Shown here piece by piece: positions 39,622 to 52,856 of a DNA stretch of 58,753 nucleotides (within the stretch, counting starts at the first letter, position 1; each line of letters starts with the position of its first letter). Origin of the DNA: an uncultured Acidobacteriia bacterium (GTDB lineage: Bacteria; Acidobacteriota; Terriglobia; Bryobacterales; Bryobacteraceae); contig CAITIX010000299.1 in the NCBI GenBank assembly GCA_903892565.1, positions 1 to 58,753 of the forward strand, given 5' to 3'. A program made the translations under genes and the position numbers. The notes below the pieces were generated by a model, which searched no databases, was not told where the DNA came from, and saw only the letters and a program-made list of their open reading frames with translations.

Positions 39622-39703
39622 GGTTCTTTCATTTTCCCAGATCCAGCAATCCAGTATCGGATTGAAAATCTGCGCCACTGGCTTTCACCAACATTTCTCC
39701 CAT

Positions 39704-39733
39704 GTCATCCCGAGCGAAGTCGAGGGATCTGCT
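39704..39733 (+). repeat. REP-like dispersed repeat, copy 1
   Basis: This 30-bp copy begins GTCATCCCGAGCGAAGTCGA and ends GGGATCTGCT. The arms ATCCC and GGGAT form a stem around a GCGAAG core. It lies 28 bp before the gamma-glutamyltransferase start. It is identical to the copies at 42250 and 51231. Confidence 0.9.
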
Positions 39734-42249: not shown

Positions 42250-42279
42250 GTCATCCCGAGCGAAGTCGAGGGATCTGCT
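42250..42279 (+). repeat. REP-like dispersed repeat, copy 2
   Basis: Identical over 30 bp to copies at 39704 and 51231. It stands alone between the lysozyme-like gene and the cytochrome c gene. Just downstream GCCAACCCCG occurs twice, at 42308-42317 and 42327-42336. Confidence 0.9.
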
Positions 42280-49149: not shown

Positions 49150-50574
49150 ATGAATAAATCCATGTCCGAGCTATCCTTTCTCCCCGCCCTTGAACTCGCG
49201 CGCCTCATTCGCACCAAAGCCGCGAGCGCCGCCGAAATCATGCAAGCTCACCTCTCGCAGATTGAGCGCGTGAATCCGAAAGTGAATGCCATCGTCACGC
49301 TCGTGGCCGATCAGGCGCTCGCGCAAGCTCGCTTGGCCGACGACGCCCTTGCCCGAGGAGCAAACATCGGCGCGCTCCACGGCCTGCCCGTCGCCCACAA
49401 AGACCTGTTCGAAACCCGGGGCATTCGCACCACGTTCGGCTCCCGCATCTACAAGGACAACGTCCCCGACCGCGACTCCATCATCGTCGAGCGCGCCAAG
49501 GCCGCCGGAGCCATCACCATCGGCAAAACCAACACGCCCGAATTCGGAGCCGGATCACAAACGTTCAACGAAGTTTTCGGCACCACCGCCAACCCCTGTG
49601 ACGCGACGAAAACCTGCGGAGGTTCGAGTGGCGGTGCCGCCGTCGCGCTCGCTTGCGGCATGACGCCGTTGGCCGATGGCAGCGATCACGCGGCCTCTTT
49701 GCGAAATCCCGCGGCCTTTTGCGGCGTGGTCGGCATGCGCCCCGCTCCCGGACGCGTCCCGACCGCACCCGCGTCGAACCCTTGGTCCACCATGAGCGTC
49801 GATGGACCCATGGCCCGTAACGTTGCCGATCTCGCGTTCTATCTGAGCGCTCTTGCCGGACCCGATACGCGCAGCCCCATCGCCATTTCCGAATCCGGCG
49901 CGAAATTCGCCGGCGATCTCCAGCGCGATTTCAAAGGCGTCCGCGTCGCCTGGTTCAAGGATCTCGGCGGAGTGCCTTTTGACCGAAAGATTCTCGAAAA
50001 TATACGTGTTCAGCGCAAAGTGTTCGAAGCTCTCGGCTGCATCGTCGAAGAGGCCGAGCCCGATTGGACCGAAGCCACCGAATCGTATAACGTCCTGCGC
50101 GCTCAGGGCTTCCTCGGAGCCCATGCCGAACACGTCCGCCAGCATCGCGAGCTCGTAAAAGACACGATCCTCTGGCAGGTGGAAGAAGGCCGCAAGCTCA
50201 CCGCCGAGCAGATCGTGCGCGCGACTACGCAGCGTGCGCAGTTATACGAACGCATGCGCCTGTTTATGCAGCGCTACGAATACTTCGTCCTGCCCACCAC
50301 GCAGGTGCTGCCCTTCGATATCCATCAGCCCTACGTCACTGAAATCGACGGCGTAAAAATGAACTCCTACATCGATTGGATGAAGAGCTGCTACTACATC
50401 ACCATGGTGGAGACTCCGGCGATCTCCGTGCCTTGCGGATTCACCGCAGAGGGTTTGCCAATCGGGCTGCAGATCGTCGGCCGCCATCGCGATGAGTGGA
50501 GCGTGCTGCAAATGGCGCATGCCTATGAGCAGGCGTCGGGCGAAGGGTGGAGGAAGCCAACGGTCGCGTCGTAG
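49150..50574 (+). CDS. Amidase signature family enzyme
   Basis: A 474-residue amidohydrolase. The Ser-cisSer-Lys triad can be placed by spacing: Lys84 in V-A-H-K-D-L-F, cis-Ser159 in C-G-G-S-S-G-G and nucleophile Ser183 in D-G-S-D-H-A-A-S-L-R-N-P, with the family intervals of 75 and 24 residues. The usual T-G-G-S before R is H-A-A-S here, so the oxyanion-hole loop is altered, but the nucleophile is kept. The substrate could be an amide, an aryl acylamide or a carbamate-type compound. A GatA role is unlikely without gatB/gatC nearby. ATG 49150 is used; ATG 49162 is an alternative. Confidence 0.88.
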   Translation: MNKSMSELSFLPALELARLIRTKAASAAEIMQAHLSQIERVNPKVNAIVTLVADQALAQARLADDALARGANIGALHGLPVAHKDLFETRGIRTTFGSRIYKDNVPDRDSIIVERAKAAGAITIGKTNTPEFGAGSQTFNEVFGTTANPCDATKTCGGSSGGAAVALACGMTPLADGSDHAASLRNPAAFCGVVGMRPAPGRVPTAPASNPWSTMSVDGPMARNVADLAFYLSALAGPDTRSPIAISESGAKFAGDLQRDFKGVRVAWFKDLGGVPFDRKILENIRVQRKVFEALGCIVEEAEPDWTEATESYNVLRAQGFLGAHAEHVRQHRELVKDTILWQVEEGRKLTAEQIVRATTQRAQLYERMRLFMQRYEYFVLPTTQVLPFDIHQPYVTEIDGVKMNSYIDWMKSCYYITMVETPAISVPCGFTAEGLPIGLQIVGRHRDEWSVLQMAHAYEQASGEGWRKPTVAS

Positions 50575-50591
50575 GAATTGGGGCTGCATCG

Positions 50592-51020
50592 ATGGGATCG
50601 AAACAAGACTGTGAAGAGCTAATGAACGCGGTCCTTCCCATAGCGGAGTCTATGCTCCGTCAACATGGCGAATTCTATCCCTATGCCGCGTATATGAAGG
50701 CCGACCGATCTATCGTTCACGTCGCAGCGGCGGATCATGATACCGATCATCCGAAACCGAGGGATCTGCTCTATGTCCTCGAGGACTCGTTGCGGCAACT
50801 TGCGCGCAATAGCGAGTGCATAGCGGTTGCATTGGTTTGGGACGTTACCGTGGATCTACCCGAAACCGCAGTTCCCGGCGACGCCATTCAGTTGTGTCTC
50901 GAACATTTGGACGGTTATTCGGTCGAAGTCTTCTTCCCCTATCGCATCGCCGAAGGGAGCGTCGTCTTCGGCGAATCTTTTGCTCAACGTCGCGTACCCG
51001 CCGTGTTCGGGATGGAATAA
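50592..51020 (+). CDS. Small cytoplasmic protein of unknown function
   Basis: A 142-residue soluble protein. ATG 50592 lies 18 bp after the amidase stop; the frame extends upstream into the amidase without support. The predicted fold is alpha/beta: M-N-A-V-L-P-I-A-E-S-M-L-R-Q-H-G-E-F-Y-P-Y at the start, D-L-L-Y-V-L-E-D-S-L-R-Q-L-A, then V-A-L-V-W-D-V-T-V-D and V-E-V-F-F-P-Y. The alternation and small size resemble immunity-type proteins, but I do not recognise the family. Its stop codon is followed 8 bp later by an inverted REP-like copy. Confidence 0.65.
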   Translation: MGSKQDCEELMNAVLPIAESMLRQHGEFYPYAAYMKADRSIVHVAAADHDTDHPKPRDLLYVLEDSLRQLARNSECIAVALVWDVTVDLPETAVPGDAIQLCLEHLDGYSVEVFFPYRIAEGSVVFGESFAQRRVPAVFGME

Positions 51021-51028
51021 AGACAAAC

Positions 51029-51058
51029 AGCAGATCCCTCGACTCCGCTCGGGATGAC
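51029..51058 (-). repeat. REP-like dispersed repeat, copy 3 (inverted)
   Basis: The inverse of the 30-bp repeat with a single A-to-G change in the GCGAAG core on the repeat strand. It is 172 bp away from, and facing, copy 4. Confidence 0.9.
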
Positions 51059-51230
51059 AAAAGAGAGGTTGAGCTGGAAGGTCGGGCTTGATCGGGCGGA
51101 TTGGCGCGGGCAAGATGCCGCGAAAACGATTTGGACGCTAGATTGCGGTCGGCGATGGCGGGGATATCCCACGGGCGCGAAGCGGGCAATGGTAGAGAGC
51201 GCTTCTACCGATTACACTATCCCCTACGTT

Positions 51231-51260
51231 GTCATCCCGAGCGAAGTCGAGGGATCTGCT
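51231..51260 (+). repeat. REP-like dispersed repeat, copy 4 (left end of GIY-YIG element)
   Basis: Identical over 30 bp to copies 1 and 2. Its GAGGGA sits 8 bp before the TTG that opens the GIY-YIG reading frame. Confidence 0.92.
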
Positions 51261-51262
51261 GT

Positions 51263-51616
51263 TTGCGTGACCGGGACTATTTCGTATACATCCTCGCTAG
51301 TCGGACGCGTGTTTTGTACGTCGGCGTGACACGCGATTTGAACCGTCGAATCCGCGAGCACAAACAGGGAGAATTCGAAGGCTTCACGAAAAAGTATCGT
51401 GTCCATCGGCTTGTCTATTTTGAATCGTACCGCGACGTCCGCTCGGCCATCGGGCGCGAGAAGCAACTGAGGCGATGGGCCCGCGACAAAAAGGTCGGCC
51501 TGATCGAGGCCCAGAATCCAACCTGGGAGGATTTGTCTGAATCGTCTGCCGACCAGGAATTCTCGGACCAACAGTCGATCCCTCTTCGCTCTGGACGACA
51601 CCGCTCAGCTCATTGA
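51263..51616 (+). CDS. GIY-YIG nuclease domain protein
   Basis: A 117-residue single-domain GIY-YIG nuclease of the small UvrC-N-like family. The motif halves are V-Y-I (8-10) and Y-V-G (19-21), then Arg28/Arg29 and His33 in L-N-R-R-I-R-E-H, and the metal-binding Glu66 in G-R-E-K-Q. The family normally ends near N-P-x-W-E-D-L (85-91), which is present; residues 103-114 (Q-Q-S-I-P-L-R-S-G-R-H-R) are read-through of the inverted right repeat. No ATG exists near the domain start. TTG 51263 with GAGGGA 8 bp upstream, both provided by or adjoining the left repeat, is the best start. The frame is open upstream through the whole repeat. It should cut DNA; the target is unknown. Confidence 0.85.
   Translation: MRDRDYFVYILASRTRVLYVGVTRDLNRRIREHKQGEFEGFTKKYRVHRLVYFESYRDVRSAIGREKQLRRWARDKKVGLIEAQNPTWEDLSESSADQEFSDQQSIPLRSGRHRSAH
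51573..51599 (-). repeat. REP-like dispersed repeat, copy 5 (diverged, inverted; right end of GIY-YIG element)
   Basis: Matches the inverse of the 30-bp repeat in blocks (GATCCCTC, TTCGCTC, GGA-x-GAC) with a 3-bp deletion and a few substitutions. It lies in the 3' end of the nuclease frame. Confidence 0.7.
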
Positions 51617-51698
51617 AAAATTAGGAGGCAGTCCAAATTCCTCGAAACACACACTAGCCTCACTGTTTCTATCCAAACTAGCCAGATTCCAGTCAAAG

Positions 51699-51726
51699 TT
51701 GATCTTTTCCGCCGGGCTGTGATACC
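51699..51726 (+). promoter_or_regulatory. Candidate promoter for the ATP synthase operon
   Basis: TTGATC (51699-51704) and GATACC (51721-51726) with 16-bp spacing, about 65 bp before the first atp gene, in the only sizeable gap (51617-51792) upstream of the operon. The -10 match is weak. Confidence 0.28.
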
Positions 51727-51792
51727 GTTATTGATTGGACGCAGTCGTCGTAACCTGCGTTGCGAAGTTCGTCCGATCCCCGAAAAACCAGC

Positions 51793-52242
51793 ATGGAACA
51801 GACTCTGCAAGCACTGGTTGGCATCCTGCAAAAGGCTGTCCCCACCATTTTGCTGCTGCTTTTACTGTGGTTTTACTTCAAGGTCATGCTGTTTGGGCCT
51901 CTGTCGAAAATCCAGAAGCAGCGCGATGCGTTGACCAAAGGCGCGCGCAAGACGGCGGAAGAAAGCCTGGCTTCGGCCGAGCGCAAGACCACCGATTTCG
52001 AAAATAAACTGCGCGACGCTCGTAGCGAGGTCTATCGCGAACAAGAAGAGATGCGCAAGCAGTGGCTGGCCGATCAAGCCGCGCAGATCGAACAGGCCCG
52101 CGAAAAGAACGCAGCCTCGGTTCGTGGCGCGAAGGATCAGATCACCAAAGAAGCCGCTATCGCTCGCACCACGCTGAGCACCACGAGCGAGCAACTCGCG
52201 GATCAAATCGCCGGCAGCATCCTGAACAGGAGAGCCCAGTGA
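51793..52242 (+). CDS. atpF: ATP synthase Fo subunit b (first copy)
   Basis: A 149-residue peripheral stalk subunit. One N-terminal membrane helix (about 11-33: L-Q-K-A-V-P-T-I-L-L-L-L-L-L-W-F-Y-F) is followed by a charged, continuous helix to the end (E-S-L-A-S-A-E-R-K-T-T-D-F-E-N-K-L), the dimerising stalk. ATG 51793 gives the expected short N-terminus. It opens the atp operon. The end overlaps the GTG start of a second b-type gene, so the stalk is probably a b/b-prime heterodimer. Subunits a and c, which usually precede b, are not here. Confidence 0.92.
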   Translation: MEQTLQALVGILQKAVPTILLLLLLWFYFKVMLFGPLSKIQKQRDALTKGARKTAEESLASAERKTTDFENKLRDARSEVYREQEEMRKQWLADQAAQIEQAREKNAASVRGAKDQITKEAAIARTTLSTTSEQLADQIAGSILNRRAQ

Positions 52243-52856
52243 AAATGATCGCAAGGCGTTTGGCGCTGGTCTTATTATTCACGGTCGGCGGTTCCTGTAT
52301 CGTGATGGCGCAGGAAGCCGCGCCTTCTTCCGAAGCCACGGAGCAGAAGCCCGAGCAAAAAAAAGAAGCTCCAGAAGGCACCGAAATGTGGCGCTGGATC
52401 AACTTCGTGCTGCTGGCCGCGGGCCTCGGCTATTTGATCGGCACCAACGCGCCGGGCGTTTTCCGCGCACGCACCGCAACCATTCAGAAAGACATTACCG
52501 AAGCGCAGGCCGCGAAGAAGGATGCCGAAGCGCGAGCCGCCGCGGTCGACGCGCGCGTGCAGGCCTTGGGCGCGGAGATGAATAAGCTCCGGGAACAATC
52601 GAAAGCCGAAATGCAGCAGGAAGGCGATCGCATCCGTCAGGAAACGGCTCGGATGATCGCGCATTTGGAAGCGCAGGCATCCGGCGAAATTGAAGCCGCC
52701 GGTAAAGTGGCCAAGCGCGACTTGAAAGAATATTCCGCCAAGCTCGCCTTGGAGCTCGCCGAGCAGCGCATCCGCACCGGATCGAACGCCGCCACGGAAA
52801 ATGGTTTAGTGGACGCGTTTCTCTCTGATCTTTCTCGTCAGGGGTCGAAGAATTAG
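52239..52856 (+). CDS. atpF: ATP synthase Fo subunit b (second copy, with N-terminal signal-like helix)
   Basis: A 205-residue b-type subunit. GTG 52239 overlaps the previous stop and has AGGAGA 5 bp upstream; ATG 52245 is also possible. An extra N-terminal hydrophobic segment (R-R-L-A-L-V-L-L-F-T-V-G-G-S-C-I-V-M-A-Q) looks like a cleavable signal peptide. A Glu/Lys-rich stretch (35-55), the true membrane helix (about 57-75: W-R-W-I-N-F-V-L-L-A-A-G-L-G-Y-L-I-G) and a long coiled stalk follow. The signal-like start is unusual compared with textbook b subunits. The atpH start follows directly after its stop with no gap. Confidence 0.9.
   Translation: MKMIARRLALVLLFTVGGSCIVMAQEAAPSSEATEQKPEQKKEAPEGTEMWRWINFVLLAAGLGYLIGTNAPGVFRARTATIQKDITEAQAAKKDAEARAAAVDARVQALGAEMNKLREQSKAEMQQEGDRIRQETARMIAHLEAQASGEIEAAGKVAKRDLKEYSAKLALELAEQRIRTGSNAATENGLVDAFLSDLSRQGSKN

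Follow-up and report, generated by a model that had tools for sequence, protein, structure and literature searches.

A stand-alone GIY-YIG nuclease gene between facing REPs in an acidobacterial genome, and the recurrence of this pairing across bacteria

The window, a stretch of 58,753 nucleotides that forms contig CAITIX010000299.1 (C299) of an uncultured Acidobacteriia bacterium (Bryobacteraceae; assembly GCA_903892565.1), belongs to a 4.6-Mb genome in 454 contigs with a completeness of 95.6% and an estimated contamination of 4.0%. It contains a short gene for a stand-alone GIY-YIG nuclease, which lies between two facing copies of a dispersed, REP-like repeat, and further copies of that repeat (Table 1). 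The core of the repeat, GTCATCCCGAGCGAAGTCGAGGGATCT, is found without mismatch at 51231-51257 and at 39704 and 42250, all on the forward strand, as the original prediction had indicated. With one mismatch it is also found on the reverse strand at 51032-51058, and the mean number of matches in 100 shuffles was 0.00. Over 37 nt, the arm at 51024-51060 is 97% complementary to the one at 51229-51265.

Table 1. Features of the nuclease unit and additional repeat copies in the window
Feature	Position	Strand	Remarks
Solo REP copy	39704..39730	+	exact match to core
Solo REP copy	42250..42276	+	exact match to core
Extra REP copy, outward-facing	51024..51060	-	168 nt upstream of left arm
Left REP arm	51229..51265 (core 51231-51257)	+	GTC head outward; directly before domain
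GIY-YIG frame, stand-alone nuclease	51263..51616	+	TTG start, 117 aa + stop
Right REP arm, diverged, facing	51570..51600	-	overlaps 3' end of frame

The proposal that the nuclease is bounded by inverted repeats holds for the two arms, but the reading frame ends, stop codon included, at 51616 and not at 51599. The right arm carries a 3-nt deletion and aligns with a score of 18.5, as compared with a maximum of 13 in 2000 mononucleotide shuffles. It had been expected to encode the end of the protein; it does contribute to the C-terminus (approximately residues 103-113), but four further residues follow. The TTG at 51263 is the start codon closest to the GIY-YIG domain, and the GAGGGA that had been noted inside the left repeat as its ribosome binding site is indeed present (51249-51254), ending 8 nt ahead of this codon. 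This layout looks local to the window locus. Among 51 relatives from the phylum that possess arms, the left arm ends a median of 37 nt before the domain, and in only five of them does it end within 5 nt of the domain or inside it; the repeat-borrowed ribosome binding site was thus rejected as a general design feature. At the first of the solo copies, the ATG at 39702 that opens a 582-aa frame sits at the repeat, and an automatic start call would place the repeat inside the gene.

The encoded protein matches the GIY-YIG family of Pfam (PF01541) with 52 bits against a cut-off of 22.6. The family-conserved residues Y9, Y19, R29, H33, E66 and N85 are all present, and the domain together with its catalytic residues places the protein in the GIY-YIG superfamily. 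The predicted structure (mean pLDDT 85.6) is confident over the domain and of low confidence over the repeat-encoded tail. The closest solved relatives are UPF0213 proteins (PDB 1zg2 and 1ywl; E 6e-7 by sequence and 2.3e-4 by Foldseek), followed by Slx1 and the nuclease domain of UvrC, and no NCBIfam or PHROG family was matched. An identity as RAYT was rejected, the frame containing a GIY-YIG domain and no HUH/Y1 tyrosine transposase; a group I intron was likewise rejected, as no Rfam intron RNA matched in 50500-52300. The high-scoring subfamily of related nucleases has a common C-terminal NP-W-DL motif, and the homologue of Neisseria gonorrhoeae is 50.6% identical to the window protein over 85 aa (E 2e-26).

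The repeat has the layout GTC, stem, interior, complementary stem and C. In the window the stem is ATCCC...GGGAT (5 bp), the interior measures 12 nt and the tail is CTG. All 38 copies in the genome carry a TGTC or CGTC tag except two, which have GGTC or TGTT. When 122 loci were compared, with arms picked by left-right similarity alone, the own 5-nt stem of a locus was found to pair in 80, as compared with 5.1% for stems tried on loci of another stem type. The stems include ATCCC, ATCCT, ATTCC, ATTCT, ATTGC and ATCTC, and start with AT in most of these 122 loci. The REP stems covary: complementarity is kept while the sequence changes. Such covariation fits a hairpin, whether of DNA or of RNA, as well as a palindrome bound by a dimer. 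As single-stranded DNA, the dRS3 form of the repeat exceeds its shuffles in stability (z -3.9), whereas the window's own 30-mer merely equals them (z 0.15), which argues against its recognition as a single-stranded hairpin. The interior GCGAAGC of many copies resembles a very stable DNA mini-hairpin. Among 29 unique copies, obtained from 30 of the 38 loci (L004-L033), the 5' flank is rich in pyrimidines (66%, against 50% in the surroundings; p=2e-9) and an A is found at position -11 in 22; these features possibly reflect a target preference or a longer repeat.

At up to three mismatches, the 30-mer occurs in 38 copies on 29 contigs of the window's genome, and in none when read backwards. The same genome yields three GIY-YIG matches, namely a 666-aa frame of UvrC size, the nuclease of the window and a second stand-alone gene (L001), which likewise lies between facing REPs. 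On two other contigs, facing REPs stand 915-930 bp apart around unrelated genes (C221, L023/L032 31-975; C229, L024/L033); the pair on C221 encloses a frame resembling an exported protein, and an Xre-like frame begins near the pair on C229. Within the genus, the nuclease is found in one of 23 genomes and the repeat in one of 23, and this is the same genome (two nucleases, 38 repeats), the repeat being absent from the 22 others. Only one copy, at three mismatches, was found in 100 other genomes of the family, and none of 21 stand-alone GIY-YIG loci from other family genomes scored above 37 bits against the window protein. The simplest reading of this distribution would be that nuclease and repeat reached the window's lineage together and then dispersed, a reading that rests on one species and a fragmented assembly. 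Together, 23 of the 29 repeat-bearing contigs amount to ~585 kb, or 12.7% of the assembly, which is above the estimated contamination. Whether solo copies have empty counterparts in close relatives had been put forward as a check. The repeat is indeed missing genome-wide in the 22 relatives, but the exact sites were unreadable: these relatives align with the window from atpF onward and not upstream of it, and their genes near 39.7 kb lie on different contigs.

A protein search of the phylum gave a match in 137 of 396 genomes, and the resulting loci were searched for facing arms, five of 90 being left out as too short. Facing arms with a score of at least 18 were found at 51 of the 69 high-scoring loci, as compared with four of 20 loci of a lower-scoring subfamily, which is no more than in the far flanks of the latter (4 of 19). 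Over all loci of the subfamily, facing arms were present at 117 of 179, versus three of 158 flanks taken 0.8-1.1 kb away. Direct-orientation scores around the nuclease genes are often high as well, since the REPs are near-palindromic and clustered.

A second test asked for exact GTC hairpins that face the gene on both sides. Such pairs were found at 27 of 69 phylum loci, 15 of 28 genus loci and one of eight loci on viral contigs, against none of 20 loci of the other subfamily, none of ten other GIY-YIG loci and three of 154 far flanks (from the phylum, named-genome and genus groups). Loci with less than 200 bp of flank were left out (four other GIY-YIG, six named-genome, two viral and two genus loci), as were 29 of the 43 other GIY-YIG loci, many of them UvrC, that had no tblastn match. 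Among the 74 testable loci from named genomes (of 80 kept from at least 566 relatives among at least 580 candidate stretches), the exact pair was seen at 41, spread over at least 16 named phyla; 61 passed one or the other facing test, 13 had no detectable pair, and the Bacillota were weak with two of six. Of the phylum loci, 52 of 69 passed either test. The original prediction had counted homologous nucleases with no repeat nearby against itself. Nucleases without a detectable facing pair are present in part of each group (the 13 of 74 named-genome loci, 17 of 69 phylum loci and 10 of 28 genus loci), while most loci have the pair. Members of the subfamily also occur on ten viral contigs (L247-L256), where six of the eight testable loci passed the facing-repeat test. 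Several nuclease copies beside REPs (L142, L145, L146 and L117) look broken or shortened, as decaying units would.

Three records of 40 in a plasmid collection were chosen, not drawn at random, for closer inspection. They come from N. gonorrhoeae, Azospirillum lipoferum and Sinorhizobium meliloti (pSymB), and in each of them the nuclease gene has CGTC repeats to its left and to its right. The A. lipoferum nuclease is placed between sufB and sufC, and that of N. gonorrhoeae sits in a cluster of 16 dRS3 cores. The gonococcal record (NZ_CP119140.1; L357) is catalogued as a plasmid but, to judge by its length of 2.17 Mb and its content, is probably a chromosome.

The type of REP was found to follow the nuclease lineage in part. 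In a rapidly built tree of 87 nucleases, of which 54 carried a label, with few columns and many weak forks, the stem type changes 21 times, as compared with a shuffled mean of 29.9 (none of 200 shuffles as low); frames with stops or shorter than 70 aa and repeated rows were not included. The signal is carried by the stems ATTCC and ATTCT, and counter to it the type found in the window, ATCCC, shows no clustering. In genus g79, where 48 of 62 genomes have a nuclease, the REP GTCATTCCCGAAGGGAATCTGC is present in all ten genomes with a close nuclease (3 to 116 copies) and more abundant there than in the other 52 (p=1.7e-4). The 145-bit limit for such a cognate nuclease was chosen after viewing the hit list, and places G301 (133 bits, 98 copies) among the others. 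Between g79 genomes with only other nucleases and those with none, no difference in this REP was seen (p=0.37), and nine of the 14 genomes that lack a nuclease still have 2 to 40 copies, which argues against strict dependence. The idea that repeats should be scarce where the nuclease is lacking therefore stands in the window's genus (0 of 22) and gets a mixed answer in g79, where the repeat is enriched with its nuclease and yet persists without one. Several nucleases with different REP types are found within one genome. Taken over the tree and g79, nuclease lineages tend to retain their REP type.

The clearest case of a unit at a new site is L113 in genome G457, a 448-bp insert between a hisC-like aminotransferase gene and hisB (imidazoleglycerol-phosphate dehydratase). 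The comparison comprised 30 loci drawn from 62 genomes, one being the occupied site and one lacking a readable flank pair. In all 28 readable relatives the gap is empty, the flanking genes being separated by 6-176 bp, too little to hold the insert; this includes the nearest relative (G514), which has no REP in the gap. Loci that share nothing except the REP-nuclease-REP block were found when L113 was compared with its clade and in pairs within each of the genomes G239, G294 and G279. These comparisons show that in some genomes copies of the putative unit occupy different positions. The other nine of the ten genomes in the nuclease clade of G457 all have the gene at the same site, with an argG-like gene on one side and an argH-like gene on the other (gene names assigned by eye), from which it follows that retention is common and relocation rarer.

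Block ends were also counted systematically. Over the domain, 225 locus pairs, which are not independent of each other, share an isolated block, 32 blocks being at least 390 bp long and 193 shorter. Ten of the 32 long blocks have a GTC head within 7 bp of each of their ends (displaced control 2.3%), and a head lies this close to the left end in 20 and to the right end in 11 (controls 15% and 13.5%), an excess of ends at the heads that speaks for the unit. The short blocks, which consist mostly of the coding part, end at both heads in four of 193 (displaced control 1.5%). Against relocation as a discrete unit, 22 of the 32 long and 189 of the 193 short blocks do not end at both heads, and such block ends could in part arise if gene and REPs are under selection while their flanks drift. 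This count slightly lowers the odds of the reading as a relocating unit.

The tempo of the solo REPs was followed in two sister species, G332 and G427, over 400 kb that are colinear and 97.5% identical. A motif search found 22 REP clusters in each; most are present in both, several have changed in place and two were unplaceable. One clean case of presence and absence is a 102-bp REP-bearing stretch in G427 that is missing from G332. A high turnover had been expected here and was contradicted by the large share of common sites; the solo REPs are nearly static between these species. Facing REP pairs 200-900 bp apart were absent from the 2 x 400 kb.

A reasonably probable reading of the locus, and the one we favour, is a nuclease unit with a REP at each end, in which the enzyme recognises the REP that belongs to it, probably in single-stranded form. 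The unit has the form GTC-REP, GIY-YIG nuclease, REP-GAC, with the GTC heads outward and a length of about 370-490 bp. From the comparisons above we infer how recognition, single-strand cutting, rejoining by the host and the origin of solo REPs might proceed. The nuclease would recognise the cognate REP, most likely while it is folded into a hairpin on a single strand, for which the lagging-strand template and intermediates of repair or transformation are candidate sources, and would cut close to the GTC head. Once both facing REPs are cut, the unit would be exposed or released and then placed at another site by repair or recombination of the host, and abortive or partial events would give rise to solo REPs. 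In this way the nuclease would have for these repeats the role that RAYT has for GTAG REPs. As a hydrolytic nuclease of another fold than RAYT, it would need host functions for strand joining.

An alternative, which we regard as unlikely and yet the most serious, is that the protein is a single-strand endonuclease in the service of the host: by cutting incoming or exposed strands at REPs it would modulate natural transformation or recombination. The adjoining REPs would then simply be the targets closest to the gene, and units would relocate incidentally, when repeats recombine with each other. It is in line with the gonococcal homologue in its cluster of dRS3 cores and with the age and stability of most sites, as seen in the clade with one shared site and in G332 and G427. 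A self-spreading unit is better suited to the facing pair directly at the gene in most loci, the joint, lineage-specific presence with 38 copies, and the several nucleases with different REP types per genome. That the nuclease acts as a homing endonuclease, cutting double-stranded solo REPs into which repair copies the whole unit, appears improbable. GIY-YIG is a fold of homing endonucleases, and 19 of 60 relatives weakly match the model of a group I intron endonuclease; the lack of an intron RNA around the gene, the clean empty site of G514 without a REP and the presence of two copies of the target within the unit itself, a situation that homing avoids, speak against it. It is very improbable that another enzyme moves the REPs and that the nuclease gene is one passenger among others. 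The pairs around unrelated genes in the window's genome would agree with such cargo; an enrichment specific to one GIY-YIG subfamily, a REP type that follows the nuclease phylogeny and the lack of facing pairs 200-900 bp apart in the 2 x 400 kb of the two sister species would not. Chance or an assembly artefact, which the fragmented genome and its 4% contamination might suggest, has a negligible probability and was ruled out by the shuffle tests (expected matches zero), the recurrence of the pattern in independent genomes and the 12.7% share of the repeat-bearing contigs.

The prediction of a REP system other than that of RAYT is therefore well supported as far as the pairing of nuclease and REP is concerned, on the basis of the facing arrangement, the REP type on the tree and the joint arrival; nucleases without repeats and repeats without a nuclease mark its limits. 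More tentatively, and with slightly less than even confidence, we propose that the dedicated enzymes so far missing for CGTC and CGTC-like REPs may be GIY-YIG nucleases, and that the ~0.4 kb units may be autonomous, transposase-free elements that move through single-stranded DNA and are widespread in bacteria. If this is true, many genes annotated merely as "GIY-YIG nuclease family" would belong to mobile units of very small size and would form a natural set of repeat-specific nucleases. A testable candidate enzyme can now be named for the CGTC REPs, whose enzyme was left open in the sections consulted of a 2013 survey (PMC3733652). Natural cognate pairs of nuclease and repeat are available for assay, the GTC heads are suggested as element ends, and the repeats of Neisseria (dRS3), rhizobia and Acidobacteria are brought into one frame. 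No paper linking GIY-YIG nucleases with REPs was found in a literature search that had preprints and most subscription journals outside its scope; in the sections consulted, neither a 2006 survey of GIY-YIG proteins (PMC1564403) nor the 2025 RepRanger paper (PMC12306157) makes this link.

Among known systems, the small GIY-YIG proteins of UPF0213 are nearest to the window protein by sequence and fold, whereas the relatives of the window protein share the NP-W-DL motif at their C-terminus. The homologue in Neisseria is presumably Ssn, which is reportedly a site-specific single-strand GIY-YIG endonuclease with a repeat as its target and is said to affect transformation. If this identity is correct, the likeness consists of a homologous nuclease, about half identical to the gonococcal copy, and a dispersed repeat adjoining the gene; in contrast to Ssn, the window protein is known from its sequence, and its activity is putative. 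Part of the nuclease-REP pairing may therefore already be in print with the work on Ssn.

With regard to the repeats, the CGTC superfamily was defined by Di Nocera, De Gregorio and Rocco (2013; PMC3733652) as one of two large REP classes, and in the sections consulted its CGTC- or TGTC-tagged members are described as apparently without a dedicated transposase. Parts of the superfamily are equated there with dRS3, RPE-4 and RPE-6, and its families have stems of 8-9 bp, loops of 4-5 nt and tails of the CCA type (PMC3733652). The window repeat resembles them in its outer CGTC/TGTC tag, its stem starting with AT and its dispersed intergenic copies, but since its 5-bp stem is shorter, its 12-nt interior longer and its tail CTG, it is called CGTC-like and placed outside the four published families. 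Unlike the CGTC REPs as published, the repeats here are accompanied by a nuclease, and in N. gonorrhoeae, A. lipoferum and S. meliloti it is dRS3 cores and CGTC repeats themselves that flank the nuclease homologues. Finally, the unit has in common with the REPtrons, in which RAYT (TnpAREP) is combined with GTAG REPs, that facing REPs enclose one small gene for a DNA-processing enzyme, that solo REPs are scattered through the genome and that the repeat type is tied to the enzyme, and it differs from them in its tag and in having a GIY-YIG nuclease instead of an HUH tyrosine transposase. By analogy, the unit of the window would work like a RAYT REP system, with its enzyme gene flanked by facing REPs, and would not be a member of it.
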